From: a virus
IMG/VR virus record: IMGVR_UViG_3300046167_000420
Location: 1-32,522 of that record
Reading direction: 5' to 3' (one strand)
Length of the DNA: 32,522 nucleotides
The translations under genes were made by a program, and so were the position numbers. Position 1 is the stretch's first letter; every line of letters starts with the position of its first letter. The notes beneath the pieces were generated by a model. It saw only the letters and a program-made list of their open reading frames with translations. It searched no databases and was not told the DNA's origin. This document shows positions 3,876 to 20,900 of the stretch, piece after piece.

Positions 3876-4346
3876 ATGCTCATCTATGGAATCGACCCCG
3901 GATTTACAGGAGCAGTCAGCATATATGACACAGAACTAGACAGCTTAATCATTCATGATATTCCTGTAGTTAAATCTCCAAAAGGCAAGACGCTTATCAA
4001 CTTGCCTGAGTTACTTTCAATCTTAAACAACACAGAAAACCAACCATCCCTGGCAGCCATTGAGCTTGTAAATGCTATGCCTAATCAAGGTGTTAGCAGT
4101 ACATTCAGGTTTGGTCAGGGCTTTGGTCAACTGCAAATGGGGATCGTGGCATCAAAGCTACCCATAGAATATGTGACGCCACGTCAGTGGAAGAAATACT
4201 TTGACCTTACGAGAGACAAAGGTGAGAGTAGAAGACTAGCGAAGCTCTGCTTCCCTAACCATGCACACTATTTCAAACGAGTCAAAGATGATGGCCGAGC
4301 AGAAGCCGCACTCATTGGATTGTATGCAAAAGAAAACTTAATCTAA
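3876..4346 (+). CDS. RuvC-like Holliday junction resolvase
   Basis: A 156-aa protein of RuvC size and fold signature. IYGIDPGFTGAVS carries the first acidic residue (Asp7), AAIELVNAMPNQG the second (Glu63), and the C-terminal KDDGRAEAALIGLYA the last acidic cluster (Asp138/Asp139). The VTPRQWKKYF motif (residues 100-109) is typical of phage RuvC-like nucleases. The enzyme resolves four-way or branched DNA, needed here before packaging of recombination-generated concatemers. ATG follows AAGGAGATTGAC. It sits in the same operon as the YqaJ exonuclease, ERF and SSB-like genes. An operator-like 15-mer lies within its coding sequence at 4173-4187. Confidence 0.85.
   Translation: MLIYGIDPGFTGAVSIYDTELDSLIIHDIPVVKSPKGKTLINLPELLSILNNTENQPSLAAIELVNAMPNQGVSSTFRFGQGFGQLQMGIVASKLPIEYVTPRQWKKYFDLTRDKGESRRLAKLCFPNHAHYFKRVKDDGRAEAALIGLYAKENLI
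4173..4187 (-). promoter_or_regulatory. Operator-like 15-mer inside the resolvase gene (copy D)
   Basis: On the minus strand the sequence is CTGACGTGGCGTCAC, 14 of 15 identical to copy A. It encodes part of the conserved VTPRQW motif, so coding constraint may explain it in part. It could still serve as an auxiliary site, as in DNA looping. Confidence 0.25.
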
Positions 4347-4356
4347 GGAGAACAAC

Positions 4357-4578
4357 ATGACTGTTACACATACACAGACAAATGAAATCAAAGCATATCT
4401 GAAAAAGGGTTATCGCATTACACCAATAGATGCGCTCCAAGCATTTGGTTGCTTTCGATTAGCGGCACGAATCAAAGAAATTAGAGATGAAGGTATGCAG
4501 GTTGAAAAGGTAATGGTTGAAACAGTTAACGGCGCTCGTGTAGCGCAGTATTACTGCCCATCAAAGGTGCGCACATGA
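4357..4578 (+). CDS. Small HTH-domain protein (HTH_39-like, 73 aa)
   Basis: The core RITPIDALQAFGCFRLAARI (residues 20-39) followed by KEIRDEGMQVEKVMVE matches the short winged-HTH pattern remembered for Pfam HTH_39. There, I/L-TP-x-D/E-A and FRLAARIxELR are conserved. Such proteins are frequent in phages and probably bind DNA. ATG follows AAGGAGAACAAC, an initiation cassette identical to those at 4914 and 5696. The stop overlaps the next start (ATGA). Confidence 0.75.
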   Translation: MTVTHTQTNEIKAYLKKGYRITPIDALQAFGCFRLAARIKEIRDEGMQVEKVMVETVNGARVAQYYCPSKVRT

Positions 4579-4841
4579 CATACAAAACAACCAAGCTTAG
4601 TGATGCAGCACGTCCTTCTGTATGGGACGCACATGTCTCAAAGGCAGCAAGCTCTCCGGTTATGGCCCGTGAGTACAAGAAGTCTGGCTATGTCTTAGAC
4701 AGCGACAAGATTATGGCGCAGCGTATTCGCAATGGTGAAGCTATCGGTGAGCCATACCTCAAAGGTGAAACTAAGAAGCGCCTCAAGAAATTCCAGAACT
4801 TATCAGAAGAGCACTTCGAAAAGTATGGAAAGTACGAATGA
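4575..4841 (+). CDS. Hypothetical protein (88 aa)
   Basis: An 88-aa charged protein starting at an ATG that overlaps the previous stop by four bases. Features are a Ser/Ala-rich segment near residue 25 and a basic helical C-terminus (GETKKRLKKFQNLSEEHFEK). No family was recognised. The stop codon lies within the palindromic element at 4838-4852, upstream of the exonuclease gene. Confidence 0.65.
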   Translation: MTYKTTKLSDAARPSVWDAHVSKAASSPVMAREYKKSGYVLDSDKIMAQRIRNGEAIGEPYLKGETKKRLKKFQNLSEEHFEKYGKYE

Positions 4842-4886
4842 CGTAACGTCACTTCGTATTGCCTAAGCTGCACATAAGCAGTAGGC
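4838..4886 (+). promoter_or_regulatory. Palindrome (copy C) and hairpin upstream of the recombination genes
   Basis: ATGACGTAACGTCAC at 4838-4852 contains TGACGT-A-ACGTCA, a perfect inverted repeat. It is extended outward by TACGAA/TTCGTA arms with one bulged base. It matches copy A at 12 of 15 positions. Immediately downstream, GCCTA..CTGC (4861-4871) pairs with GCAGTAGGC (4878-4886) around ACATAA, with a 2-nt bulge. Together they occupy most of the 72-bp gap before the YqaJ-type gene. An operator plus leader hairpin controlling the recombination cassette is the likely reading. Confidence 0.45.
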
Positions 4887-4913
4887 TAATAACTGATAAC
4901 AAAGGAGAACAAC

Positions 4914-5699
4914 ATGGAACGCAAAGGTTTCATAGGTGGTTCCGACTGCGTAAAGATAATGCAGGGGAACTGGCTAGAGTTATGGCAGATCAAGACAGGT
5001 CGAGTTGAGCCTGAAGATTTGTCTCGCAATCTTGCAGTGCAGATGGGCATACAGACTGAAGAGTTTAATTTGCTTTGGTTTGCCAATGAGTATGACTGCA
5101 CTCTTACTGACTTCCAGAAGACATTCGAAGAAAAGATTGGATCAGTACCAGTTAAGGGCACGGTTGACGCTATGGTAGGGGATTCTATTGAGGACTCTAT
5201 CGTAGAGGCAAAGCATACCAACTCATACAATACTTTAGACAAAGTAATTGAGTATTACATGCCGCAAGTGCAGCTATACATTCACCTAGCAAAAGCTGAA
5301 GGCGCTCATATGTCTGTTATCTTTGGCAATAATAAGTGGGAGTCAGCTCATGTCAGACGCAACGAAGAGTATTTCAATTCTATGTGGGCAGTGGTGTCGG
5401 ACTTCTGGGGTTACGTGCTTCGCGATGAAGAGCCAGTTGGTAATGACCAGCCGATACAACTTAGCATTGACAAGGTGTCGGTGGACAACATGGTCAAACG
5501 TGACGCCACCCAAGACAACCACTTCAATGATGCAGCCTACACCTACATTACTCTAGAAGCAGATGCCAAAGCATTTGAGTCAGCCAAAAAACAAATCAAA
5601 GATATGGTTGGCGACAATGAGCGTGAAGTTTACTGCGATCATCTAACCGCAAAGCGTGACAAGCGTGGAGCTATTCGTATCACAAGGAGAACAACATGA
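4914..5699 (+). CDS. YqaJ-type viral recombinase / PD-(D/E)XK exonuclease
   Basis: A 261-aa protein. GFIGGSDCVKIMQGNWLELW (residues 5-24) and the KTGRVEPEDL segment match the YqaJ family start. The catalytic PD-(D/E)XK core is visible as GTVDAMV (Asp85) and IVEAKHT (Glu98, Lys100), with Glu49/Glu50 upstream and MPQVQLYIHL downstream. The family degrades duplex DNA ends 5' to 3' to give single-stranded tails for an annealing protein. Such a protein, ERF, is encoded next and overlaps by 4 bp. ATG follows AAAGGAGAACAAC. The length fits lambda-exonuclease-like proteins. Confidence 0.85.
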   Translation: MERKGFIGGSDCVKIMQGNWLELWQIKTGRVEPEDLSRNLAVQMGIQTEEFNLLWFANEYDCTLTDFQKTFEEKIGSVPVKGTVDAMVGDSIEDSIVEAKHTNSYNTLDKVIEYYMPQVQLYIHLAKAEGAHMSVIFGNNKWESAHVRRNEEYFNSMWAVVSDFWGYVLRDEEPVGNDQPIQLSIDKVSVDNMVKRDATQDNHFNDAAYTYITLEADAKAFESAKKQIKDMVGDNEREVYCDHLTAKRDKRGAIRITRRTT

Positions 5700-6136
5700 C
5701 CGATACAGCAATCAAGGCGCTGCTCAAAGCGCAGCAAGCAATGGAGTCTGTAAAGAAAGACAGCCTCAACCCACACTTCAAGAACCGTTATGCCTCACTC
5801 GAGGCAGTGATTGACGCTACGTCAAAGGTGTTCCAAGAGAACGGGTTCGTTGTCATGCAGCCTTGTGGCCGTGACGAGCTTGGCATGTATGTCGAGACAA
5901 AGATACTTCACACCTCAGGAGAGGCGTTCTCAAGCAGGGTTTACCTTGTCTTGAGTAAACAGGACATGCAGGGCTTAGGCAGCGCTATAACGTACGCTAG
6001 ACGCTACGGCTTGCTAGGCATGGCTTGCCTTGCACCAGAAGATGATGACGGGAACATGGCGGCTAAGCAATCTAGCGGTGTTCAAGTGACCAAAGGTCTA
6101 TCATCAGAGAATCCATCTGCATCAGGCGGGTGGTAA
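5696..6136 (+). CDS. erf: ERF-family single-strand annealing protein
   Basis: A 146-aa protein with the ERF signature: NPHFKNRYASLEAVIDA (residues about 25-41), a central beta region (MYVETKILHTSGEAFSSRVY) and QGLGSAITYARRYGLLGMAC, then acidic EDDDGN. ERF proteins bind single-stranded DNA and anneal complementary strands, working with a 5' exonuclease. It is somewhat short for the family, with a truncated Gly/Ser-rich tail ending ASGGW. It is coupled to the exonuclease gene (ATGA overlap) with its own AAGGAGAACAAC. Together with the SSB-like protein and resolvase it forms a complete recombination set. Confidence 0.88.
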   Translation: MTDTAIKALLKAQQAMESVKKDSLNPHFKNRYASLEAVIDATSKVFQENGFVVMQPCGRDELGMYVETKILHTSGEAFSSRVYLVLSKQDMQGLGSAITYARRYGLLGMACLAPEDDDGNMAAKQSSGVQVTKGLSSENPSASGGW

Positions 6137-6141
6137 ACCGA

Positions 6142-6163
6142 GGGGGTTAATTCCCCAATTAAC
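6142..6163 (+). promoter_or_regulatory. Mutually exclusive hairpins upstream of the SSB-like gene
   Basis: GTTAATT (6146-6152) and AATTAAC (6157-6163) form a perfect inverted repeat with a CCCC loop. The loop can instead pair with GGGG (6142-6146). The two folds exclude each other and lie just before the AAGGAG ribosome-binding site (6166-6171). Autogenous control by the SSB-like product is possible but unproven. Confidence 0.3.
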
Positions 6164-6179
6164 ATAAGGAGCCAGAAGC

Positions 6180-6551
6180 ATGGCAGATACATACGACGAT
6201 ACAAACCGGGGCGCAGCGTTCACCCCGTTCCCTACACAGCAGATGATCTTGCAAGGTAAGCTCAACGTCGAGGGCAACGACAAGAAAGTTATGCTGGTTA
6301 AAGACCAGACGCGAGACGGCAAGCCTGTCATTGAGATGTATGAAAAAATTGGCGTGTTCTTTGACAACGATAAGAAAGGTAACGAGTCAGCTCCTGACTA
6401 CAGCGGCCCACTTGGTGACACAAAACGTCTTGCTGGGTGGAAGAAGATGAAGGATGGTAAGCCTTATATGTCGTTCCAAGTTAGTGAAAAGATGTCAGGT
6501 GGCGGCAAGCCAACAACTGATCCCTTGCAAGGTGATGACATACCGTTTTAG
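6180..6551 (+). CDS. SSB-like single-stranded DNA-binding protein (candidate)
   Basis: A 123-aa protein whose C-terminus ends GDDIPF, the classic acidic tip of bacterial and phage SSB proteins used to recruit partners. The body has beta-strand blocks (KKVMLVKDQTRDGKPVIEMY, KIGVFFDND) and LAGWKKMKDGKPYMSFQVSE. The last resembles DUF736-like phage proteins thought to be small DNA-binding folds. The position directly after exonuclease and ERF supports an SSB role. A canonical SSB OB-fold signature is not obvious, so the call is moderate. It is preceded by TAAGGAG and followed by a strong terminator. Confidence 0.6.
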   Translation: MADTYDDTNRGAAFTPFPTQQMILQGKLNVEGNDKKVMLVKDQTRDGKPVIEMYEKIGVFFDNDKKGNESAPDYSGPLGDTKRLAGWKKMKDGKPYMSFQVSEKMSGGGKPTTDPLQGDDIPF

Positions 6552-6575
6552 AAAGGAGGTGTTCTCCTATCAACT

Positions 6576-6601
6576 GGTCAGCCTTCGGGCTGGCCTTTTT
6601 T
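6576..6601 (+). terminator. Rho-independent terminator after the recombination module
   Basis: GGTCAGCC (6576-6583), TTCG loop, GGCTGGCC (6588-6595), then six T (6596-6601): an 8-bp GC-rich stem with one G-U pair and a UUCG-type tetraloop. Just upstream, AAAGGAGGT (6552-6560) is a perfect Shine-Dalgarno sequence that can fold against CTCCT (6564-6568) and serves no evident gene. Confidence 0.88.
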
Positions 6602-6616
6602 AATTGAGGAACAAAT

Positions 6617-7303
6617 ATGCCAAGAACAGAACTTAGCAAGTGCATTAACGCAGCAGAGATGGGGCTAACGCAAAGAGAAGCATCCACCTTATTAGACATA
6701 CCTTATTCAACTATTAAAGAACTCACGAATAAATATGGCATAAAATTCGTATGCCCTAGAAGGAAAGCCAATGAAAGAAGAAGCCTCCAAAGCCCTCGAA
6801 AGAGCGAAGCGCCTGCTATCAATGATGATCAAAAAAGCAGACAGCAACCAACGCCCAAACCTAAAGCAAGAACTAGAAGAAATAAAAGCTCTGATAGAGA
6901 TAGCGCAAAAAGAATAGATGAAATCTACAGCAGCAATCTCTCTCGAACAGAGAAATATGAGCTGCTATATGCTGAAGCAATATGGACTTTCGAGCAGAAG
7001 ATGATTGATCTAAAGATGCGGCCCCCGTTTCCTGTTAAAAAAAACTATACACCAGAGAATGCTTCTAATGCAGCAATAAGAAAGCAACGAGAGCAGTCGA
7101 TCCATCGACGCCAGATAATAATGGATTGCTTTAAAGGTAGCGAAACAAAAGTAGCTGAAGACATTACGAGAAAAACAAAGCTACCACTTCGTATATCCAG
7201 CCAGATGCTAGACCTTATGTATAGAGACGGAGTGCTTAACAGAGAGCGAGTTCAAATTGGAAAGAACAAACGCAATAGCGTCTATCATTACTCAAAGAAT
7301 TAA
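6617..7303 (+). CDS. Two-domain DNA-binding protein, candidate late regulator or replication initiator
   Basis: A 228-aa protein with three parts. Residues 1-45 hold a helix-turn-helix (MGLTQREASTLLDIPYSTIK, followed by ELTNKYGIKF). Residues about 50-100 are a polar, low-complexity linker rich in Arg, Ser, Pro and Lys. The C-terminal part (about 105-228) includes KVAEDITRKTKLPLRISSQM followed by MYRDGVLNRERVQIG, a winged-helix pattern. It is the last rightward gene, beyond a strong terminator, and so probably depends on read-through or its own promoter. Such a position is typical of late activators or lambda O-like initiators. Neither is proven. The linker is overprinted by a second ORF (6771-6917). 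Confidence 0.7.
   Translation: MPRTELSKCINAAEMGLTQREASTLLDIPYSTIKELTNKYGIKFVCPRRKANERRSLQSPRKSEAPAINDDQKSRQQPTPKPKARTRRNKSSDRDSAKRIDEIYSSNLSRTEKYELLYAEAIWTFEQKMIDLKMRPPFPVKKNYTPENASNAAIRKQREQSIHRRQIIMDCFKGSETKVAEDITRKTKLPLRISSQMLDLMYRDGVLNRERVQIGKNKRNSVYHYSKN
6771..6917 (+). CDS. Nested helical protein ORF (48 aa) in the linker of the 228-aa gene
   Basis: In another frame within 6617-7303, an ATG preceded by AAGGAAA with 5-6 nt spacing opens a 48-residue ORF. It reads MKEEASKALERAKRLLSMMI, then a KKADSNQRPNLKQELEEI and KALIEIAQKE region. The product is a charged amphipathic helix pair with normal amino-acid use. The overlapping portion of the large protein is low-complexity Arg/Ser/Pro sequence, as expected where one frame is constrained by another. 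It may be a genuine overprinted gene, or the two domains of the 228-aa ORF may have been separate genes. Confidence 0.45.
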   Translation: MKEEASKALERAKRLLSMMIKKADSNQRPNLKQELEEIKALIEIAQKE

Positions 7304-7309
7304 TCGTGT

Positions 7310-7380
7310 GGGTGGCCGTTGATAGTTAAAAGTGGCGCTTTTTGGTAGCAACGTCATCCGAGGTAAACAACCGCCATCCC
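7310..7380. terminator. Possible bidirectional terminator in the convergent gap
   Basis: The 124-bp gap 7304-7427 separates the ends of the early and late operons and holds no gene. GGGTGGCCGTTG (7310-7321) is complementary to CAACCGCCATCCC (7368-7380) with one mismatch and one bulge. Inside is a weak AAAAG/CTTTT hairpin (7328-7342) ending in T5. GTGGGTGG (7308-7315) also pairs with CCACCCAC (7413-7420). The expected place for transcription to stop on both strands, though no textbook terminator is present. Confidence 0.35.
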
Positions 7381-7427
7381 CGTGGATAAGCTGATTTGGT
7401 TTATGATGATAACCACCCACTCGATTC

Positions 7428-7883
7428 TTATACTACTAACTCGAAATGAGGTCCATCAATAAATGGCCTCCGACCCTGTGATCTACGCAAATCAATGTAA
7501 CTATTCATTGCATCTTCCATATTGCCCTCACCATACTGAGCAATGTTTGGAACAGACCAAGCAGCGCCCCAGATAATAGGAACATCAACAGCGCGGGCGC
7601 CCTCTGCCATGGCGTCAGCAATTTCATCATAGAGATTGAGTTCCCATCTGCCTCCATCAATGTAGGCCATAAGGTCAACAGCCAATCCATCAATATGCTT
7701 AGACTTCATTGTTTGACTAGCACCCTTAGCAACGAGAGCCCTCTGCTCTTCGATCGTGCGCAGCCCACAGATCACAGAGAAGTCTTGCTTAGTCACGTTG
7801 ATTGCATACTTCACAACAGCAACCATACGTTCATCAACGCCAATCAGCCTATCAAGACTACGCTTACCTAACTTGTAACTCAT
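7428..7883 (-). CDS. Endolysin, M15-type peptidase (L-Ala-D-Glu endopeptidase-like)
   Basis: A 151-aa protein with the M15/VanY zinc-ligand pattern: SKHIDGLAVDL (His63, Asp70) and GPHFELV (His146). It also has the N-terminal GLRTIEEQRALVAKGASQT substrate-side segment typical of phage peptidoglycan endopeptidases such as the T5 type. It would cut the peptide stem of the cell wall at lysis. There is no signal peptide, so access needs the holin encoded immediately upstream (ATGA overlap, 4 bp). It is the last gene of the late operon. The length is standard for single-domain M15C endolysins. Confidence 0.88.
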   Translation of the reverse strand: MSYKLGKRSLDRLIGVDERMVAVVKYAINVTKQDFSVICGLRTIEEQRALVAKGASQTMKSKHIDGLAVDLMAYIDGGRWELNLYDEIADAMAEGARAVDVPIIWGAAWSVPNIAQYGEGNMEDAMNSYIDLRRSQGRRPFIDGPHFELVV

Positions 7884-8473
7884 TTCTTAAACCCCTTCAT
7901 TGTACGGATACCAAAGCTAGCCGAGATACTAGCGAAACAAGCCCACTGAAACCACTCTGGCGCAGCTGAAATATTAGCGAAGCCCTCCTTCATATAGGGC
8001 TGAAGCGGAGGCACAAACGAACACAGGATTATTGCTATGAAAGCAAGGGTCCAAGCCTCATCTTTCCATGAACCATCGCTTGCCTGTATAGCAGCTTGCT
8101 CCCAACTGATCTCACCAGTGGCAATCTTCATTTTAGTTTCTGCTTCAGCTTTCTTAACAACAGCTTTGCTGTCAAGATAAGTAGCCGCCAAACCACCAAG
8201 CGATCCAATTATCTGACCAATCATTTGCTTCACCTCATACTCTACCTTAGAGCTTGAACCAGTGGATGTTACGCTAGTCTTGGATTCCTTGCCCATCCAT
8301 ATACCAAAGCACCCTGTAAGAGCCCCCATACAGACGCTTACAAGCCCTGATTGAGACACGCTGGGATCATCTAGCCCCATAAACCAATGCACCGCCTGAT
8401 ACGTCAGCACAGTGACTGCCAACATCATCAATCGCGGCAGTATTTTCCAATCATCTAAAACTGTGTGTGCCAT
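7880..8473 (-). CDS. Holin (GTA_holin_3TM-like)
   Basis: I choose the ATG at 8473 (198 aa; MAHTVLDDWKILPRLMMLAV), preceded by AGGAAG. An in-frame upstream start at 8548 would translate through the preceding small gene. Membrane segments are visible at about residues 12-32 and 41-60 (GLVSVCMGALTGCFGIWMGK). Further hydrophobic stretches include WTLAFIAIILCSFVPPLQ and WFQWACFASISASFGIRTMK near the C-terminus. The GIWMGKE and FGIRTMKG motifs fit the 3TM holin family first described for gene-transfer agents. Pore formation would release the M15 endolysin, whose gene overlaps by 4 bp. Confidence 0.8.
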   Translation of the reverse strand: MAHTVLDDWKILPRLMMLAVTVLTYQAVHWFMGLDDPSVSQSGLVSVCMGALTGCFGIWMGKESKTSVTSTGSSSKVEYEVKQMIGQIIGSLGGLAATYLDSKAVVKKAEAETKMKIATGEISWEQAAIQASDGSWKDEAWTLAFIAIILCSFVPPLQPYMKEGFANISAAPEWFQWACFASISASFGIRTMKGFKK

Positions 8474-8600
8474 GTAGCTTCCTACCTTTCTGCAAAAGTA
8501 AAAGAACTTCCTTAAAGTCTCGACCAGATCGTGCAGCCAAGCCCTCAATTATTAACTCAATGTTCTGATCGAACAGCCGTATAATCTCTGCGTCCTTCAT
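8451..8600 (-). CDS. Small hypothetical protein in the lysis cassette (49 aa)
   Basis: The ATG at 8600 directly follows the stop of the upstream gene (TAGATG). The 49-aa product starts MKDAEIIRLFDQNIELIIEG and ends in a basic tail (LLQKGRKLHGTHSFR). It reads as one amphipathic helix and a positively charged end. It overlaps the holin start by 23 bp in another frame. Tight coupling on both sides supports a real gene. A helper or antiholin-type role is conceivable from position only. Confidence 0.6.
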   Translation of the reverse strand: MKDAEIIRLFDQNIELIIEGLAARSGRDFKEVLLLLQKGRKLHGTHSFR

Positions 8601-9068
8601 CTACCATTTGCCCTGCTGTTTGCCGATAAAATATAACACGGCCCCAAGGCCAGCAATTCCAGCTAAAACAATTGTCCCACCAACCACCCACATTACGATG
8701 GCCTCTTTGATTTCGGCCTTACGATACGCAGTCTTCTTGCGCTGCGCTCTGATCTTGCGGAGCGTGTCTTTATATTCCTCTAAACCTTGAGGCCCATGCT
8801 GGTACATAATTATTGTTTCAATTTCTTTCTTCATTGCTTGTAAACGCTTCTGAGCGGAGAACGCATCAATTGCAGCCTGCTCTGCGGAGCCAGTCAGAGA
8901 TGCAAATACACCCGGATTCTTGGCCTTTTCAGCAGCATAATTTACGTCACTAACCGCGCCAGCAAATTTGGATAACGCGCCTGAAGCATCTCTACCCGCA
9001 GCCAGTAAAGTCTTTGCACTAGATACAGCAGAAGCTGCTATTGAAAGTGCTGAGATAGGATCAATCAT
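8601..9068 (-). CDS. Membrane-anchored hypothetical protein of the lysis cassette (155 aa)
   Basis: The N-terminal half is Ala/Ser-rich and helical (SALSIAASAVSSAKTLLAAG). A long charged helix follows (about residues 70-120, with RLQAMKKEIETIIMYQHGPQ), then a clear C-terminal membrane segment at about residues 125-148 (MWVVGGTIVLAGIAGLGAVL). The body is probably cytoplasmic or periplasmic with a C-terminal anchor. Similar proteins are common near lysis genes of marine podoviruses. A spanin-like or holin-modulating role is possible but not shown. The start overlaps the preceding stop by 4 bp (ATGA). Confidence 0.7.
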   Translation of the reverse strand: MIDPISALSIAASAVSSAKTLLAAGRDASGALSKFAGAVSDVNYAAEKAKNPGVFASLTGSAEQAAIDAFSAQKRLQAMKKEIETIIMYQHGPQGLEEYKDTLRKIRAQRKKTAYRKAEIKEAIVMWVVGGTIVLAGIAGLGAVLYFIGKQQGKW

Positions 9069-9238
9069 GTTTCAACAAACCTTGCTGGGCAAACAAAGAG
9101 ATAGCTGACACGATAAACCTTATCGTACCACAAGCCATTCTTTTGAAGGCCGCAATCATAATAACAGTATTGAAACAGCTGGTTCCCGCCCTGCGTCCAA
9201 GCGTGGTTGAAAGAGACAAAGGCGAGAACACAGATCAT
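9065..9238 (-). CDS. Small secreted cysteine-containing protein (57 aa)
   Basis: A short ORF starting at ATG 9238, sharing one base with the upstream stop (TGATG), and ending in ATGA overlap with the next gene. The N-terminus (MICVLAFVSFNHAW) looks like a short signal peptide. The mature part has FQYCYYDCGLQ and, near the end, LFVCPARF. The CYYxCG...CP spacing is a pattern I remember from small hypothetical proteins of marine phage lysis regions. Periplasmic location with a disulfide is the likely state. No lipobox is evident, so it is not a clear Rz1-type spanin. Function unknown. Confidence 0.65.
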   Translation of the reverse strand: MICVLAFVSFNHAWTQGGNQLFQYCYYDCGLQKNGLWYDKVYRVSYLFVCPARFVET

Positions 9239-9432
9239 CAACCCATCTTTGTTAAGACTGCGACCAAGAGTGCAATGATAGATCCTGTAGCTGCAAGCAT
9301 GATACTTTCCATGCGCTTGACGCGGCTAAACAAATCTTTGAACTGAATCTTTACCTCAGTCTTGATAGCGATCACTTCTTTCTCTAAGCCATCAATCCGC
9401 TCATGCGCGGATGCTACTGTACGTTTGTCCAT
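9238..9432 (-). CDS. XhlA-like coiled-coil membrane protein (64 aa)
   Basis: The N-terminal two thirds is a heptad-like charged helix (HERIDGLEKEVIAIKTEVK). It is followed by RVKRMESIML and a C-terminal membrane segment (AATGSIIALLVAVLTKMG). This order (coiled coil, KR-x-ES, one transmembrane helix) is that of XhlA/haemolysin-type lysis-associated proteins. It probably sits in the inner membrane and cooperates with the holin. It is the first gene of the lysis cassette, coupled to the 57-aa secreted protein by a one-base overlap. Confidence 0.7.
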   Translation of the reverse strand: MDKRTVASAHERIDGLEKEVIAIKTEVKIQFKDLFSRVKRMESIMLAATGSIIALLVAVLTKMG

Positions 9433-9441
9433 GTTTTATTC

Positions 9442-9942
9442 CTATGGTTTAGTCGGCCAGTCGGAGTCAGCCAAATTAGGCCAATCCGCATGTGTGGTAA
9501 TGTCACGCAAAGCCTGACGATACGTTGTCATAGCAGCGTCCATTGTCACATCAGTCAATGCAAAGTAATCAGTATCAGCCAGCAGGCCATCACGTTTAGT
9601 ACGATTGCTTTTAGCTAACCTAGCATCAAGACCAGCTTGATATGCAGCCTCATGCTCTGCCTTGGTGGTTGTTACGCCATCCTCGTCAGTTGTGTCAGCA
9701 AACATATCCCGTGCAACGTAGTTCTCAACCCAGTTGCCATTTGCGTCTTGGACTACACCATCACGCACAGAGCTTTGATACTGTGTAGTTGTAGCCGCTG
9801 GGCTGCGCAGTACAGCCTCTAGGTTTAGGCCATCCAGTGTTGCTTGCTTCCATACACGAGGCATAGATACGTTGCTGTAGTGGCTCCGCCATTGCCCTTG
9901 GGTCTTAACTTCGCCTGTTTCTGTGTGTCTATATTCAGCCAT
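9442..9942 (-). CDS. Tail assembly chaperone-like / fibre-associated protein (166 aa)
   Basis: I choose the ATG at 9942 (MAEYRHTETGEVKTQGQWRS), preceded by AAAGGA. The in-frame ATG at 10005 lies inside the restored end of the upstream tail gene. The C-terminus has TTYRQALRDITTHADWPNLA ending in DSDWPTKP. The YRxxLRDI...WPxxP pattern is typical of phage tail-fibre assembly chaperone domains (Phage_tail_APC-like). The position directly after the host-recognition tail protein fits a role in its folding or attachment. Confidence 0.65.
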   Translation of the reverse strand: MAEYRHTETGEVKTQGQWRSHYSNVSMPRVWKQATLDGLNLEAVLRSPAATTTQYQSSVRDGVVQDANGNWVENYVARDMFADTTDEDGVTTTKAEHEAAYQAGLDARLAKSNRTKRDGLLADTDYFALTDVTMDAAMTTYRQALRDITTHADWPNLADSDWPTKP

Positions 9943-9973
9943 CTGCGAGTGATCCTTTCGTGATGCTGTTGAG

Positions 9974-10180
9974 TTATGCGATTGCATAGAAGATGTAAGT
10001 GTCACCTGATCTATTGGTTCTAACGTTATTATTAACTATAAAACCACTTGCATCTGGGTCTATATAATCTGCTGTAGTCACCTCTGCGTTATTGCTATTT
10101 AGCTCTATGTAGGGGTCATTCCCAGTTACTATACCACGGACGCTATCCCAAAGGTTCCAGCTTCCTGAATTATTAGTTCT
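9974..10180 (-). pseudogene. Out-of-frame C-terminal part of the LamG/DUF7483 tail protein
   Basis: From AGA at 10180 the minus strand stays open for 68 codons in another frame: RTNNSGSWNLWDSVRG, then NAEVTTADYIDPDASGF and GDTYIFYAIA before TAA (9976-9974). This continues the second repeat of the upstream protein. The first repeat of that protein ends with the comparable DWYIWDTMRGF and GQTYIYMAIRRG. Adding one A to the AAA at 10182-10180 would join ...FIIIK to RTNN. It is therefore a broken or frameshifted end of the gene starting at 12603. Confidence 0.75.
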
Positions 10181-12603
10181 TTGATAATAATAAACCTTGC
10201 ACCTGTTGTGAAACCACAGTCTATAACCCGTCCATTAGTACCATCACCGGTGTAGCTTCCCACCTTCGATATACCGGGTAGGCTTGCGAAGAGGTAGGCT
10301 ATGAAAGTGTTTCCTGAGTGGTTACAGTCTTGGTTTGTGCCTAAAGTAAATTCAGTGCTAGTCGGTGCAGTATCGTTCCAAAGCGTATTACTATCAGAGG
10401 CAGCACTTGTACTAAAACGTATAAAGTCTGTTTCAGGCCTACCGTCACCATCAACATCTAAACCAGTGTGATAAACACACCAAGGGTCTACACCACTGCG
10501 CTTCTTCACCCACATCATCTCAGGTACAACACCAAGGTTATGGCTTACAGTACGTCCTGCTGTTCCGTTGCCCGTGTAGGCCACAACATCGCAGAAGTTA
10601 GGCGCACGTTTCCACATATATGCTATAATAGCAGCCCCTTGGTTTGGCTGAGAGTTCCATCCATTGTTATAATCAAAGGCGTATTCAGCATCGCTGTTTT
10701 CAACAGCAGTGGTATCTGTTTCTAAGTACAAGGGTGCAGTTAATCTAGGTACGATAAAGTTATTGAGTGTAGAAGAAGTAACTTTACGCTCAATAGCAAA
10801 GTCAACGGGGAAGTCAGATCTAAAAGCAGGCGCACTTGAATCAAAGTTATCTTGCTGCAAGGCAAACACCTCAGTCGCACTCTCAGGTGGAGCAAGAGGG
10901 CCACGGCGGATTGCCATGTAGATGTAGGTTTGACCGCTGTTATTTGCAGCGTTAGACGCTCCGTGAAGGCTAAATCCCGTTGAAGTTAAGGCTATGCCAT
11001 CAAAGTCGCTTTCTGCGTTCGCCTCATTAGGCTTTAAATTTAAGTTGTTTGTGTCTGTACCGCTGTAGGTTTTAAACCCACGCATGGTATCCCAGATGTA
11101 CCAATCGTGAGCAAAGGTTGTGGGTTTTGTTAGTATCCACTGAGGCTCAAACCCTAGATCAATCTCTTGATCGGACCCATTACCAGTGTAACTCCCACAC
11201 TTGATAATATCAGCATCACCATCAGGGCCGAACTCACCATCACCATCGTTGTGGGCGAAGAGGTAGGCTACGTAGGTGTCGCCAGAACGGTTTACCCAAG
11301 AGTTAGTACCAACTGTAAAGTTAGTAGATGTTGGGGCTGTGTCGTTCCAGTTAACAGATGTGTTCGCACGTGCAGTTGTATCGTTAAAGCGTAACACGTA
11401 ATCCTCTGGAGCAGTGCTATCTACACCCCTATGGTAAACCGCCCAGTTTGTGACATTGCTTAAGCACTTCACCACAATCATCCCAACTTCACAGCCAAGG
11501 TCATGGCCAATTTGTCTTCCAGCAACACCATCCCCTGTCCAAGTCACCACATCAAAGAACTTAGGGGCTTTGCGGAATGTCCAAGAGGCAAAAGTATCTC
11601 CACTTGAGTTTGCACCACCAAGACCTTGCCCAAACCCTAATGAAAACCCATCAGAGTTAAACGAAGTTACTGGGCCTGTGTTTTGTTCTCCGGCTGTAGT
11701 TTGGGATTGAAGATATTTTGTTATATTTCTATCAGAGTCATGCAGGTAATGAGAGTTTCCATTATTACGACCCTTCAACCAAACAAGACCACCTTGGCCT
11801 TCAACTAAGGTGTCCTGTGGGAACTTGGCGGTTGGGACAGTGTAAGAAGAACCTGTGTATCGAGCCTTCCCAAGTGTCACTCGTATATCTTCTAGCCTAC
11901 CAAATAAATCATAATTGCTAAGTCTATTAGGGTCAATGCCACCTATTTCAGTATTGGTTCCTGTATATATAGAAGGCATAGTCGTGTCGCTGTCTTTTAA
12001 CGTGCCATCTAAGTAAAGCCTGTGAGTTGTTCCATCATAAGTCCAAGCAACATGATACCAAGTACCTGTAGAAACACTGGAAGAGCCTGTTGTTAGATAA
12101 ACAGTGCCACCATTTATCCTTACAACGATTTGGTCATTTTGACTACCAAACAACATGCGCCCAGCTTCGCCACCTGTGTACTGGTTGGCAATCATACCCA
12201 TATCGCTGGTTGAACCAACGTTGTTAAACCTCACCCAAGTCTCAAAACAAAAAGGGGTAGCACTATCAAAGACAGGTTGACTTAGAGTAAGAAAGTCAGC
12301 GTTGCCATCAAACTGATAGCAGGTGCTAAACTTAGCTAAACTAGTATCGAGAGAAGTCCCGCCGGTGTTGGTTACAGTAATAGTGGAAAGGGGTGAAAAG
12401 TTCCCCGTTACACTGTTAGTGCTTGATTGATAATAAACTCCATCAGCCGCACCGTCACCAAGGCTAATACCGTTAGTAATCGTTTGCGTAGAGCCGTTAC
12501 CCTCATAGAGATATGTAGAGAATACATCTGTAACATCAGGGCCGGGTTCACCACCACCAGCACCTCCAGCCGCAGCCATAAGCATTTTCTTTTTAGTAGC
12601 CAT
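10129..12603 (-). CDS. LamG / DUF7483-like tail (receptor-binding) protein, frame-disrupted at its end
   Basis: An 824-aa product. After a short basic, Gly-rich start (MATKKKMLMAAAGGAGGGEP), residues about 95-260 form a concanavalin/LamG domain with FCFETWVRFN, WYHVAWTYDGTTHRLYLDG and LEDIRV. Two copies of a roughly 190-residue beta-rich unit follow. They begin at about residue 348 (DVVTWTGDGVAGRQIGHDLG) and about residue 669 (DVVAYTGNGTAGRTVSHNLG), each with WNDTAPTST and SGxTxxAYLFA. This resembles DUF7483 phage tail proteins that probably bind surface glycans. The reading frame ends early at 10129. The natural end lies at 9974 after a 1-nt correction at 10180-10182. Start supported by AAGGAG. 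Confidence 0.78.
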   Translation of the reverse strand: MATKKKMLMAAAGGAGGGEPGPDVTDVFSTYLYEGNGSTQTITNGISLGDGAADGVYYQSSTNSVTGNFSPLSTITVTNTGGTSLDTSLAKFSTCYQFDGNADFLTLSQPVFDSATPFCFETWVRFNNVGSTSDMGMIANQYTGGEAGRMLFGSQNDQIVVRINGGTVYLTTGSSSVSTGTWYHVAWTYDGTTHRLYLDGTLKDSDTTMPSIYTGTNTEIGGIDPNRLSNYDLFGRLEDIRVTLGKARYTGSSYTVPTAKFPQDTLVEGQGGLVWLKGRNNGNSHYLHDSDRNITKYLQSQTTAGEQNTGPVTSFNSDGFSLGFGQGLGGANSSGDTFASWTFRKAPKFFDVVTWTGDGVAGRQIGHDLGCEVGMIVVKCLSNVTNWAVYHRGVDSTAPEDYVLRFNDTTARANTSVNWNDTAPTSTNFTVGTNSWVNRSGDTYVAYLFAHNDGDGEFGPDGDADIIKCGSYTGNGSDQEIDLGFEPQWILTKPTTFAHDWYIWDTMRGFKTYSGTDTNNLNLKPNEANAESDFDGIALTSTGFSLHGASNAANNSGQTYIYMAIRRGPLAPPESATEVFALQQDNFDSSAPAFRSDFPVDFAIERKVTSSTLNNFIVPRLTAPLYLETDTTAVENSDAEYAFDYNNGWNSQPNQGAAIIAYMWKRAPNFCDVVAYTGNGTAGRTVSHNLGVVPEMMWVKKRSGVDPWCVYHTGLDVDGDGRPETDFIRFSTSAASDSNTLWNDTAPTSTEFTLGTNQDCNHSGNTFIAYLFASLPGISKVGSYTGDGTNGRVIDCGFTTGARFIIIKELIIQEAGTFGIASVV

Positions 12604-12615
12604 TATGTAAGCTCC

Positions 12616-13290
12616 TTATGCTAGAGCCTGACCAGCTGTGAATCCATACCAGTTAGTTCCACCGTCACGGGTAGTGAACACGAAAATGTCCTTCGCACTA
12701 GCAGTGGCTGTGGGAATAGGAGCAGTTGCGGCAGGCCAGTCTACTGAGGTAGGCCATGTAACTATGAAGCCACTAGCAGAGGCATCTTGGATGATCTCAA
12801 TGCTGAAGGTGTAGGACGTACCGCTTGCAGGTGGATTGCTAAACGTAAACGTGGTGTTCTCCGTCAGTGTGTGGCTGAACGAGTTGCCAGCCTCACAGTC
12901 TACAGTGGTGGCGTTGGAGGATGAAGTTACCGCTGCGTAGGTCTCATTGTAGCTGTCAACAATTAACTCGCCAGTAATGTCCACATCGCCAGTATAAATT
13001 GCTCCAACTTTTGTATCAAGTTGAGTCTGGATTGCAGACGTTACACCGTCAACGTAACCAAGCTCAACCGCTGTTAATGTGCCTGGGATTCCATCTAATA
13101 CGTTTAATTCTGTCGCGCTGGCTGTAAGATCACTGATCTGTGACACAGTGAGACTTGTCGCAACCGGGGCAACGTCTTGCCATGCAGACCCGTTATAGAC
13201 CTTCATTTTATTTTCGGCAGTATTAAAGACAAGATCGCCCTCGTCTAAGCTTGTAGCCGGATCACTAGCTGCAATGCGGTACGTTTCGCT
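12616..13290 (-). pseudogene. Distal part of the tail fibre, in the frame after a 1-nt disruption
   Basis: This frame is open from 13290 as SETYRIAASDPATSLDEGDL, then VFNTAENKMKVYNGSAWQDV, with no good start before the Met at 13206. The SLDEGDLVFNT...LKVYNGSAWQ motif normally follows the repeat region of T7-like marine tail fibres. The rest has ELNVLDGIPGTLTAVELGYV and a beta-rich tip (TTFTFSNPPASGTSYTFSIE) ending in the GFTAGQALA region. It is best read as the 224-aa C-terminal part of the fibre starting at 14356, separated by a +1 shift at TTTT (13294-13291). Internal initiation at 13206 (196 aa) is the alternative. Confidence 0.75.
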
Positions 13291-14356
13291 AAAACTGTTT
13301 CACGTTGGCAATGTTGCTTGCGACTGTGTTGACGTTGGTAATTGACCCAGCAACAGTTGTGACGTTAGCCGAGGCCCCCGCAACAGTTGTGACGTTAGCG
13401 GCAATACCTGCAACAGTGGTGACGTTTGCCGTTACAGCAGCAACGGCGGTTACGTCCGTGTCTACAGCAGCCACCGCAGTGACATCCGAATCTACAGCAG
13501 CAACGCTTGTAACAGCAGAGCTAATACCAGCTACCGTTGCCAAATTTGCTGAAATGCCTGCAACAGTTCCAATGTCTGTTTCGTTAGCAGCTACAGTGGT
13601 CACATCTGCGCTAATGTTAGCAACAGTTGTGACGTTAGAAGATATTCCCGACACCGTAGTAACATTAGCTGAAATGCTAGATACCGTTGTTACGTTTGAC
13701 GCAATTCCGGAAACTGTACTGACCTCAGAGGAAATCGCGCCTACTGCTGTAATATCATTTCGAGCTGCATTTACGTTTGTAATAGCATTAGTTGCAATCG
13801 TACCATCTTGAATATCTGCAAGCGCAGCGATGTCAGCAGTTACGTTTGAAAGACTTTGAACATCTGCAATCTTAGGGCCGACCTCTACATTACCTGACGT
13901 TGCATTGAAGCCAAGAACTGTGCCTTTTCGCTCATTCAGTAAGGGGAGGGTGTAAGTCGCTGTTGCATCAGAATCTGCTGCGCGTATAGATCGAATAGAT
14001 TTATCCTGAACATCCGCAGCTATAGCAATGATGCGATCTAATTCTGTATTAAGAGCGCTAATTTGAAAGGGGCCAGAGGTTGGGAAATCCGCGGTTCGCT
14101 CAAGAGGTATTTCTCTAGTAATGACTACAGTCGATCCACCTGATGCACCAGTTACAGATATTAAGACTGAACCTGTAGAGCCGTTACCACCTGTTGTTGT
14201 GTAATCTGTAGTTAAGGTTTTTAAAACGCTATCTACATATACGTTCAAGCTCTCTTCTGCAAAGAACTCAAACGGTACAGTAAACGTAGACTGAGTTACG
14301 CCCTGCGCTACCGAATAAGATATTCGCGGAGAGTTATCAGAGAGATTGATAGTCAT
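13289..14356 (-). CDS. Tail fibre, T7 gp17-like N-terminal domain plus repeat stalk
   Basis: A 355-aa product as read. The first about 140 residues match the T7-type fibre head-binding domain: RISYSVAQGVTQSTFTVPFE, VNVYVDS-like LNVYVDSVLK, TREIPLERTADFPTSGPF and LNTELDRIIAIAADVQDK. From about residue 201, fifteen decapeptide repeats (NVTTVAGISA type) form what is probably a trimeric stalk. The stop TAG at 13291-13289 directly follows TTT. Skipping one T leads into the long downstream frame that carries the expected continuation. The full fibre would be about 579 aa (14356 to 12616). ATG follows AAAAAAGGAATG. Attaches to the tail tube and recognises the host. Confidence 0.8.
   Translation of the reverse strand: MTINLSDNSPRISYSVAQGVTQSTFTVPFEFFAEESLNVYVDSVLKTLTTDYTTTGGNGSTGSVLISVTGASGGSTVVITREIPLERTADFPTSGPFQISALNTELDRIIAIAADVQDKSIRSIRAADSDATATYTLPLLNERKGTVLGFNATSGNVEVGPKIADVQSLSNVTADIAALADIQDGTIATNAITNVNAARNDITAVGAISSEVSTVSGIASNVTTVSSISANVTTVSGISSNVTTVANISADVTTVAANETDIGTVAGISANLATVAGISSAVTSVAAVDSDVTAVAAVDTDVTAVAAVTANVTTVAGIAANVTTVAGASANVTTVAGSITNVNTVASNIANVKQF
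13307..13756 (-). repeat. Fifteen 30-bp repeats encoding decapeptides in the tail fibre
   Basis: Consecutive 10-residue units such as NVTTVSGISS, NVTTVAGIAA, DVTAVAAVDT and NVNTVASNIA, one per 30 bp. Hydrophobic Val/Ile positions are conserved while Asn, Asp, Ala and Ser vary. The regular spacing suggests a fibrous trimeric stalk. Repeat number could change by recombination and alter fibre length. Confidence 0.85.
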
Positions 14357-14399
14357 GTGACATTCCTTTTTTCATCGACTAGCAAGCTGGCCGCTTTTC

Positions 14400-14414
14400 A
14401 TCAACGCACAATTA
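14400..14414 (-). promoter_or_regulatory. 15-mer at stop codon, copy 1 (shared with 28942-28956)
   Basis: TAATTGTGCGTTGAT begins exactly with the stop codon of the 1166-aa gene and opens the 55-bp gap before the tail fibre. The identical 15-mer begins with the stop codon of the large terminase gene. It may be part of an intra-operon promoter or an RNA processing site. Chance cannot be excluded. Confidence 0.3.
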
Positions 14415-17400
14415 GTATCTACCAAAACCAGATGGGCCATCATCAAGCTCAGATTCTAACATTCGAGTCATTCTATTAACAAAATCATTCCACATCCAAA
14501 GATTGGAAAATGGCAATGCACGGATAAACTCTTTGCTACCTTCTCCAACATTACCCGTCAGCATATTAGCCATACCATTGGCATACTCCATACCAATAGA
14601 AGGGCCAGCACCAAGTAAGCCAGTAACAGCATCAGTTGCATTGGGCTCTTGTGGGTATCTAGGCTGCAATAAACCGCCAGTAATGTTAGGGCCGCCTAGT
14701 GCAAGGCTAGTACTCATAGCAGTATAGAACAAATCAGAGTAGATAGGTGCTATACCAGAGTAATCGAAGGCTCTAGCAAACTGATCTTGTGGTGACATCT
14801 CTACAAAGTCAGGGGTTTTGTATTGTAAAACTGTATATCCAAGGCCCATAGCAATTGCTGTGCCTAAGAATTGATTCTTTAGTTGACCGTGGCCGTAAGC
14901 TGCGAGTGTTTTGTTTGTTGCTGCCAATGCGTAGCTATAGAACTGGAAGGGCAAACCAAGCAAACCATTCTCTACTCTAGCATAACCTGTGTACTTGCTG
15001 TCTTCTTTCATGCCAAATCTTCTAGCAACATGAATTGGAATGTAAGCTACACCATCAGTAATAATCGGCTTATCAGCTGGTGTACCCATTAAGATCGTAT
15101 TGGCTATACCGGAGCTAAGAGCGTTGCGGAATGATTGAACAGTCTCAGGCGTAACCCTAGCTTGCTTTTCTATCTCAGCTACGGCCATATCATTTATAGC
15201 GTTTTCGTAAGCGGCTAGACCTTTTTTAGTACGCTTATCAAAGCCAAGAGACTTAGAAGAATGCAGAGTGTGCATGATTTCGTGCATCTTAATGAAAGTA
15301 ACATAATCGTCTGGCGTGTTTATAACCCCTGCTTTGATTGGGTTTACGCCCTCTACTCTAGGATTTTCCCAGCCACGATCCTGCCACATTACGTCACGAA
15401 TATAATCTTCATCTATGTAAACTTTATTCTCAGATTGCCTGTAGAATGCTGGCTTATATCTTCCGCTTTTGGTGAAAGATTCCGTTGGGCCGGTTACAAT
15501 GTCGGCAGTAGTAGAAGGAAACTCAATTGTATTTGTCCAAGCCTCGGTGTTGGCCATATACATTCCTGCCTCAGACTTTTGCCAAGGCGCATTGGCAATC
15601 TTACCCGCTGTATCTAGGTCAATGCCATAACGAAGCAGATACTCTTGCTCCATCTTAGAGGCTTTACCTTGGGTCCAGCGAACAGAGTAGTCAATGATAG
15701 TATGGCTACGCATCATGCCATCAAAGTCTTTAAAGATACGAGTGATAGGCGCCAAACCGTTAAGCGCGTAGAAAGCATTCTTGCTCTTGTCCATGAAGTT
15801 AGAACGCAATGGGTTATTACCCATATCATCTACAAGACGTAGGTGAGAAGAGCCCATTAATATCTCTAGGGCTTCACCAGCTATCCTTGCTTCTTTAGCC
15901 CCCATCTTTAACTGAGAGTCAGATAGAACGCTAAACAAGCCCTTCATAGTCTTGCCTATACCATGCTCCATCATAATTTTAGCGGGTTCAGTAATTGTAG
16001 ATACACCGGCAGCGCCAAGATAACCAAGCTGCGCTGCGCTTCGTAACACCTCAGCAGCCTTTTGATTCATAGTGTCTGGCTCACGAACAACAGTGCCAGC
16101 CACTCGATCATACATATGACGTATATCTTTAGCAGCAGCGTTAGCCTGATCTACAGTCATACCAGACTGAATCATCTCAGACATCTTATCGTCAATTACA
16201 TCATCAATTTCTTGACCATCAAACTTTACTGAAAACTCATACTTAGCAGCAGTACGCGCAGTGTATGCTTTCATAATGGAAACAGGATTGCGGTGCATAT
16301 AATCAAGGACGAGCTTATTGGGTATATCAATTCCACGATGCTTTAGGTGCTTAGACTTGCCGTATCCAAAGCTAGCAACGTCTAAGTCGGTTACATCTCG
16401 CAAGCCAAGAATAGAGTCCACTGCATCTGACGCACGTTTTGCAATTGCATTTTCATCAGTAGAAAATGTTGTCTTAACGTACTTGCCCATATTGTTTCTG
16501 CCATAACCATCTGGGTTTTGCCGAAACCAATCCGCCAAAATCTCTTCTAATCCAGAACGATCTTTTGCAATAGCGTCTTTGTCCCAATATCTAGGGCGAA
16601 ATATTTCTTCATTTGCAGGGGATGTAGGGCCAGCAGCATCTATCTCTTCAAGCGTAGACTTGTGCTGCTTGATTACATCTGAGTTTTTATCAACAATACC
16701 CTTTAAGCGAGTGTACTCAGGCGTTCCACGATAACGCTCAATGCTAAAGTTAATGTTATCTATCTTCTTTTGACGTGCATCTATATCACGAATGTAGAAA
16801 CCTTTATTGCCAATTAACCCCCTTTCGCTCAAGCGGGATTCCCACTTGCTATAGAAGTTATTGATCTGATCCATAGCCTTAGCTTCAAAATCATCTGCTG
16901 GTTTCTGACCGCGCATTGCTTTTGAGTCAACGCTAGTTAACCACTCCTCAAAGTCAGAGCGTTTATACATGTAATCCAATGGCTTAACTACACCAGAGCC
17001 TTGAGACTCGCCCCAGATTGATACCATTTCATCGTAGGCTTGTACCCATTCGCCATCTCGTAGCTTCGCATTCTGAAACACTGAGTTCTTAATTGCAAAG
17101 CCTTGCTTGTTTGCCGCTAGCAAAATGCCAGCATCATTAGCAATATCAAGCATAGTTAGCTTAACTGAGTTGGGAACAGCTTCATCTTGGAGCACACGCT
17201 TCATTGGCGTTGTTACAGACTTAAACAGCCATGATTCAGTAAATGCGCTTGTTGCAATAGACGGATCTATTTCTACACCTTCAAGCGGCTCAATAGCTTG
17301 ACGCAGATTTTCAATCTCAACTTCTGTTCTTTGTATTGCACTTGCTCTACGAGCTGCGGGTACAGATAGGGCCCCACCTAAAGCCGTACCTAAAACAAAA

Positions 17401-17915: not shown

Positions 17916-20900
17916 TTAATTACCTCCTCTTCCAAAGGTAATATTCTTTATTTCATCAAAACTTCTCATGCCCGGTCTTTTGCGCACAGCTTCTAATACT
18001 GATTCCCTTACATCTAATTGAGATTCAATTGCTGCGTTTCTATCAATTAATGCTTGAGCGTCATAGTCAGCTAGCTCGCTTTCATCCCACATAGGGATGC
18101 CTTGTTCACCGTCAATGTCCGTTATTAAAGGACGCAACTCATTGTTATCATCTACATAGTAAGCATAATATGCCGCGCCAACTGTTGCCTCATTAGGTAC
18201 AAGATAAACATCTTTTGGCTTAGGCTGATCGCCTACCGCCATTGCCGTTATACCAGTTTCTATTCCAAGGTCTAAATTCCCCTGCATTGCAATGCCTTCT
18301 GGAACTTGAATTCTGCTAGGGGCGCGAGTTGCATGGTTTCTAAGCCTGTATCCATCAGGTAACTCAGAAACAATTATGTCTATAAAGGCATCGCGCCTTT
18401 TTTCATTAGGAAACATTTTTTCAAGGCTATACATTGTCCTCGAAATTTCTCCAACTGGGAATCTAGGATCAACAACAACTCTCGTTTGATGATAATATGT
18501 ATCAACGATCTCTTCTAATCTTGCCTTTACATCTTTTTCAGACCCGCCCATTAGGGCAAGATACTCAGCCGTATCTCCAAGTTCCGCTGCAATTATGTCG
18601 CTTTTAAACTCGCTAGCTAAGTATTGTTTTGGAGTTTGATCGCCAAAAACTAATCCTATGTTAAGTTTAGATTTTTCATCATTTTCTTTGTCTTTTAGCG
18701 CCATAGCAATTTCTTTAGCGCTGCCGCCTTCTGTTTGCTTAACTTTAATAACTGCTTGTAAAAAAGTCGTTTCCTTTGCGCTTATAGGAGCGCCCTCTCC
18801 TGAGCCAAATCTGTTTACGAATAAACCAGTTGACGTAAGGTCATTTGACAAGACAGAAAACAAGTCAAGGAGAGCGTCGGCACCGGGAGTTTCAAGCCCT
18901 AAAGATATATTGTTTAGACCATCAATTAACTCTTGGGATGGAGTTTCCCTCAAGGCTTGAAATAAATCAGCGCGTCTTTCTTCAGTAGCGTATGTAGATG
19001 GATCGGTTAAAACAAAACCCTGAGAAGATAGAATCTCATTTTGTAATACTCTATCTTTTTTATCTGTTACTTTACCGCCGCCTGTTTGGACTCTTTTTCT
19101 GTTATCAGACTTTTTTTGAGCTGCTAAAATTTCTGCTTCTTTGCGACTAATTTTTTCTCTAACAGAGTTAATATGATTAACTACAGAGCTTCGTTTGTCT
19201 TCAGGAACAGTTCCAAGTATTAGATTACCGGCCTTTGCTACAGCAACGCTTACGCCAAGAGTTTCTTGACCACCACTACCAACATAATTTGCAAGAGCGT
19301 TCATATCAAACGAGCTCATATTTGCGGAAACAATGTTGGCAATACCTTTGCCAGCAGCAGAGCGCAGACCACCAGATAAGGAATCGTACTCGTTTGCGGT
19401 AATATCACCATTTGCAAGCGCAGCTGCGGCAAGAGCCTCTGATTTAGCAACAGCTTCTGAATCGTAAACTCCGTTTAGGAACCTAGTCGATTCATTCGAA
19501 ACTTGAGTAAAGAGGTTTGCATTTCTTATCTCTCGATTAATTTTATCTTGAACTTCATTTTGAGTGCCGCTCAATAACGTACGTACATAATTACGATCTT
19601 CAGCTGGATCATAAAGCATAGAGCCTTGAAGCGTAATTAACGCAGCTTGTTGCAATGTGGTTAATGTAGTCATGTCTTGAGGGTCTTGAGTAACTAATGC
19701 CTTTTTTAAAGCATCAATGTTGCCATCACTTGCCATCCCAATAATAGCTGCATCAAGACCAGCGCGTCTTGAGTCTTGCCTGAAAGCGTCTGACGCTTCA
19801 GCGCCAAGACCGTTTTGTTGTGCAAAACTAATTTCTCGTAAGCTCTTTTGATAGGCGTCATTTGCAGCATTGATTGAGCCAATAACGGAAGATTGCTCAC
19901 GAGAATCCCAAGCCTCTCTTGAGTTCATTGCAGCGGTAGCTCGACTTGGTATAATTTCAGTCGCATTATAATTACGACCAAACTCTAATGTTGCTTGTTT
20001 ATATTTCGCAGCTTTTTCACTAGCCTTTGCAGCAGTGATTGCGTTCAAGTTAGAAGATATGACGCCAGCTTCAGAAAGAATGGCTGTAGTGTTGTTCCTA
20101 TCAACGTATCCTATAAACGGCTTAAGCGCTTTTCTTTGCGCTTCTGACATATCATCCGCTCCAATTAAGCCCTGACTGCCAATATAGGCTCGCATCGCGG
20201 CTTGCTGCACTGGAGTAGAATTCTTCATAGCCACTTGGAGAGCCCCAGACATAGCCTGTGCGCCCAGAGTGGACCTTACTGTTGTCGAGTACCCCGGCTT
20301 GTAAAGCTCTGCCTTCTCGGCCTCCACAGAGGCTGTGATGCGCTCTTCTATCATTACGACAGAAGCCTCAAGCTGGCCTGCCGCTGCGGTGTCATAGATT
20401 ACTTCAGAGAATTCATCGTTAGTTGTAGCTACGTTTTGCGCAGCAGCCGCTCTGCTCTTAGCTCTAGCCGCATCGGCAAGCTGAATTTTAGTAGACCCCA
20501 TGATATAGGAGCCTGAATCCATAATAACATTCTTAAAGCGATCATCTGCGCCCTTAGCCATAGAGCCAAGATAAGACTCAAACATGTTCTGATACTGAAC
20601 AGGGTCTTCATACTTTGAAGCAATCTCAGCAGATTTCAGTCGAATGTCCTTATCAACAGAGTCAACAAAGCGGCGCTCAACCACTTGTTCAAATGCAGAA
20701 GCAGCAATACTACCCATGCCCTCCATGCTAGACAGCACTTCTGGCTTACCAGTTGCCGAGTCAAAGACCTTTAAATCTTCTGTTTGGATAGACTGAGCCG
20801 CTTCTGTTCCAAACTTTTCAGCGTTTACTTGAGCGCGTTCATAAAACTCTTGCCCAGCTTTGTCGGCAAAGTTTGATATAGCGCGGCCAACATTCTGTTC

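Follow-up and report, generated by a model that had tools for sequence, protein, structure and literature searches.

Near the end of the gene for a LamG/DUF7483 tail protein, a frame break interrupts the window, that is, the whole stretch of DNA that was analysed (the 32,522-base virus record IMGVR_UViG_3300046167_000420). The presence of this break in the sequence is confirmed, far beyond chance, and it is probably a consensus error of this metagenomic contig, introduced sporadically in sequencing or assembly. As written, the contig is short of one base, in net terms, towards the end of the second DUF7483 unit, with the result that a stop codon follows 16 residues later and the last 67 codons are stranded in the next frame. 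The phage itself would make the full-length tail protein.

The tail protein gene and its frame break

The LamG/DUF7483 gene (10129..12603, minus strand) is found in the ORF list as a zero-frame ORF of 824 residues with a truncated C-terminus, and its assignment is supported by Pfam and PHROGs. With the Pfam curated cut-offs as the threshold for domain membership, the product belongs to both PF24299 (DUF7483; 286.6 bits, cut-off 27, two stretches) and PF13385 (Laminin_G_3; 67.9 bits, cut-off 27.6, residues 99-242), and its PHROGs matches are annotated as tail fiber or virion structural. The gene product is a distal tail protein, consisting of an N-terminal segment, a LamG domain and two DUF7483 units. 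An initial annotation of this DNA had described two copies of a unit of about 190 residues; there are indeed two copies, with a length of about 225-240 residues, and their front parts are 42% identical over 166 residues.

The break is located at 10175..10190 (minus strand), with the AAA at 10182-10180, and both the translations and the nucleotide alignments described below agree with the initial annotation on this position. Near its end, the ORF 12603..10129 reads GARFIIIK, which is followed by ELIIQEAGTFGIASVV and a stop, 16 residues past GARFIIIK, and the next frame reads from 10177 as TNNSGSWNLWDSVRG and continues to GDTYIFYAIA and a stop. This stranded C-terminus (9974..10177, minus strand) comprises 67 codons (10177..9977), ending in YIFYAIA, and the TAA at 9976-9974. 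In a separate match, it corresponds to the C-terminal part of the first repeat unit. The second unit does lose its end through the break, as had been proposed. A complete second unit ending in YIFYAIA in one frame is absent from the window, and 124 related ORFs have the last 67 codons in frame. The next gene on the minus strand (9440..9942) belongs to the phage tail assembly chaperone family (PF16778), and it starts 31 nt past the TAA of the stranded segment versus 186 nt past the premature stop; the equivalent gene spacing in isolates is 27-53 nt.

Related viral contigs, with which a comparison had been suggested, read straight through this site. In a translated search, the match to 29 relatives switches from frame -3 to frame -2 at the site, and in all 45 nucleotide alignments spanning it the relative shows an offset of +1 modulo 3 against the window. 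A total of 124 ORFs from 120 related loci have the C-terminus in frame, directly following GARF[IV]L[IL]KR or a near variant of it. The gene is also intact, with the same C-terminal motif, in the cultured roseophages CRP-1, CRP-4, CRP-9, CRP-13 and CRP-603. Their proteins (CRP-4 gp52, CRP-13 gp45, CRP-1 gp41, CRP-9 gp44 and CRP-603 gp52) show 41-47% identity to residues about 265-810 of the window protein, which is the DUF7483 region. Like the gene in the window, the roseophage LamG/DUF7483 genes lie before the tail assembly chaperone gene and encode the C-terminal motif YIFYA[IV]A, whereas in the window gene a different frame holds the final 67 codons. An exact DNA search of viral contigs with the flank of the break site gave no match, so a near-identical phage is lacking for comparison at the site. 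The near relatives L082, L083 and L016 have no similar DNA covering it, and a single distant match was obtained in the genome contigs searched.

The stranded 67 codons contain no stops. Compared with 121 relatives, they have a median pN of 0.31 and pS of 0.79, and the 67 codons upstream have a pN of 0.27 and pS of 0.70. This shows that the stranded codons are about as constrained as the upstream ones, with pS near saturation, which leaves the break undated. Gene decay was rejected because pN/pS of the stranded codons is like that upstream. The structure of an intact relative (L184) was predicted from a 30-sequence alignment with a mean pLDDT of 85 and a pTM of 0.87, and in this model the corresponding residues 594-660 form five strands, mostly with pLDDT >90. 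According to the model, the truncated protein would be without a large part of the last beta domain. The model can be matched along its entire length to a predicted viral DUF7483 protein; among solved structures no convincing fold match was found, and the weak matches returned were to the LamG part. The place of the last domain and the names of its families suggest a role in receptor binding.

The phage and its tail module

The window derives from a T7-like marine podovirus. Genes for the terminase, head-tail connector, major head protein, tail tube and internal virion proteins are found on the minus strand, and those for an ERF annealing protein, a RecE-like exonuclease and a Holliday junction resolvase on the plus strand. 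Upstream of these recombination genes, a DUF932 protein gene is located at 1767-2615 on the plus strand. The contig ends (1-239 and 32284-32522) overlap by 239 bases with one mismatch, at position 195, and the relative L083 spans the contig-end junction, which together indicate that the contig covers a closed map. The mismatch is either an error or strain variation.

Relative to L016, the window is 90% identical at 13653-17334 and 93% identical at 4227-8236, and between these regions (8236-13653) the tail module is replaced by divergent homologues. Judged from these alignments, the tail module at 8.2-13.65 kb has been exchanged relative to L016, and it is likely involved in host range. A diversity-generating retroelement was also considered, and no reverse transcriptase match was obtained among the ORFs scanned, which included part of the small ORFs.

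A second break is present in the neighbouring fiber gene, of which the front part (13289..14356, minus strand) matches tail fiber PHROGs and changes frame near 13295. The ORF 14356..13289 stops at a TAG, and homology resumes in another frame from 13299. The rear part (12616..13299, minus strand) is homologous from residue 1 to proteins of L016, L029, L061, L015 and L065, all of which have a single frame through the corresponding place. The context of this break (13289-13300) is GTG AAA CAG TTT TAG C. Here the window is longer than its relatives by one base modulo 3, so the sign is opposite to that of the DUF7483 break. The initial annotation had reported two like events in adjacent genes; the second event is real, and its net length change is in the other direction.

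A probable consensus error or a recent mutation

Multiple observations favor a sporadic consensus error: the 124 related ORFs and the five isolates read through, the stranded stretch is free of stops and has a pN/pS like that of the upstream codons, sporadic breaks of this kind occur at a similar rate in essential genes of like contigs, such as the L153 capsid gene, and the overlapping contig ends disagree at 1 base in 239. Constrained stranded codons, intact homologues and similar breaks in essential genes of like contigs are found together, as expected of such an error. The case resembles the indel errors described for viral metagenome assemblies, in which an isolated one-base length change shortens a predicted gene (PMC6487183). 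The reported indel rates of virome assemblies are <2 per 100 kb for short reads and ~23 per 100 kb for polished long reads (PMC6487183). At 2 per 100 kb, the probability of two or more indels in 32.5 kb is 0.14, and the two indels are compatible with the range of the published rates.

The main rival, which is itself rather unlikely, is a real single-base mutation that arose recently in the sampled phage population, resulting in a defective or altered variant with a truncated second DUF7483 unit. Constrained codons and intact homologues would also be expected of a recent mutation and are therefore not specific to an error. Other findings speak against an error. Gene sequence totalling ~19 kb shows no indel with a net effect on the reading frame when set against near relatives, which indicates that the contig is not error-ridden; the apparent accuracy of the remainder of the contig fits a mutation. 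The rate among relatives predicts 0.1 breaks in ~24 kb, with a probability of about 0.005 for two. Both breaks also lie within the exchanged tail module, a region that could tolerate a loss or change, or in which one could be selected, and for two events their co-location in a module without a near relative for base-level checking is only weakly unlikely. The mismatch between the contig ends could, on this account, be strain variation.

On the other hand, no relative, cultured or not, is broken at the site. The truncation would cost the last domain five strands that are predicted with confidence, so it should be harmful. The stranded codons are without decay, although this only bounds the age of a mutation. 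Taking these points together, a consensus error is favored over a recent mutation, the former being the probable reading and the latter a rather doubtful one, even though the two give nearly the same picture; we infer an error rather than a mutation in the sampled phage. If the phage does carry the break, it would be a tolerated truncation of a tail adhesin.

Phase variation and ribosomal frameshifting as unlikely alternatives

It is highly improbable that the tail protein really exists in two forms, one of them lacking the last five strands of its second DUF7483 unit, with the frame break being switched or bypassed in the phage and the fiber gene behaving in the same manner. In the case of switching, slippage at repeat tracts would toggle the end of the tail protein, and that of the fiber, and thereby alter host range. 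The initial annotation had raised such phase-variable receptor-binding proteins, in view of one-base frame changes at short A or T runs in two neighbouring genes with a likely role in host range. Phase variation is known in phages: Campylobacter phages with polyG tracts are cited as an example in a review (PMC11868660). The present case is like the homopolymer phase variation cited there in that a one-base length change affects a likely host-range gene, and unlike it in that the window site is without a long tract and the relatives are without recurrence.

The tracts at the breaks are just 3-4 bases long, with AAA at the DUF7483 site, and there are ~1,100 A/T runs of at least 3 bases in the window. 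In relatives, the sequence at the site has short runs, commonly AAACGN or AAGCGN, and no long mutable tract; runs of 2-6 bases occur near the site in these relatives, yet none is broken there, and 0 of the 124 related ORFs are in an off state at this site. The 29 homopolymers of 6-8 bases in the window do not coincide with a detected break, and some of them lie within long open genes, e.g., 19111-19117 and 7037-7044. Frame breaks are also no more frequent in this family than elsewhere: one was found in ~285 kb aligned for the LamG/DUF7483 family (in L218, at a different site) and two in ~423 kb for control structural genes, of which one affects the major capsid gene. These rates are approximate, since for each query the 80 best-matching loci were used, some of which overlap, and within this precision they are alike in the family and the control genes. 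In addition, literature searches returned no report of a phase-variable LamG/DUF7483 gene. Phase variation is therefore hardly credible here. The other initial suggestion, a systematic homopolymer error, also fits poorly, with 0 of the 29 longer runs at a detected break and two breaks of opposite sign.

Programmed ribosomal frameshifting, which would yield the full-length protein from the sequence as written, is similarly far from credible: the downstream frames are open and conserved, and TTT TAG C at the fiber break is a conceivable +1 slip context that resembles the +1 site of prfB, but the DUF7483 site has no X XXY YYZ slippery heptamer, the RNA around the two breaks is no more stably folded than shuffled sequences (z +0.96 and +0.44), and the relatives do without a shift at both places.

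When a metagenomic phage contig is broken by one base, the result can mimic host-range switching, and two quick discriminators are the break rate relative to capsid and portal genes in like contigs and the intactness of longer homopolymers. In annotating the contig, it is best to take the LamG/DUF7483 gene and the fiber gene each as a single gene. Among the relatives, the LamG/DUF7483 gene of L218 is broken (L218:1540-1600) at a different place in the protein, and frame breaks in the major capsid gene of L153 (11905-12710) and the tail tube gene of L121 (5521-7549) provide a yardstick for sporadic errors.
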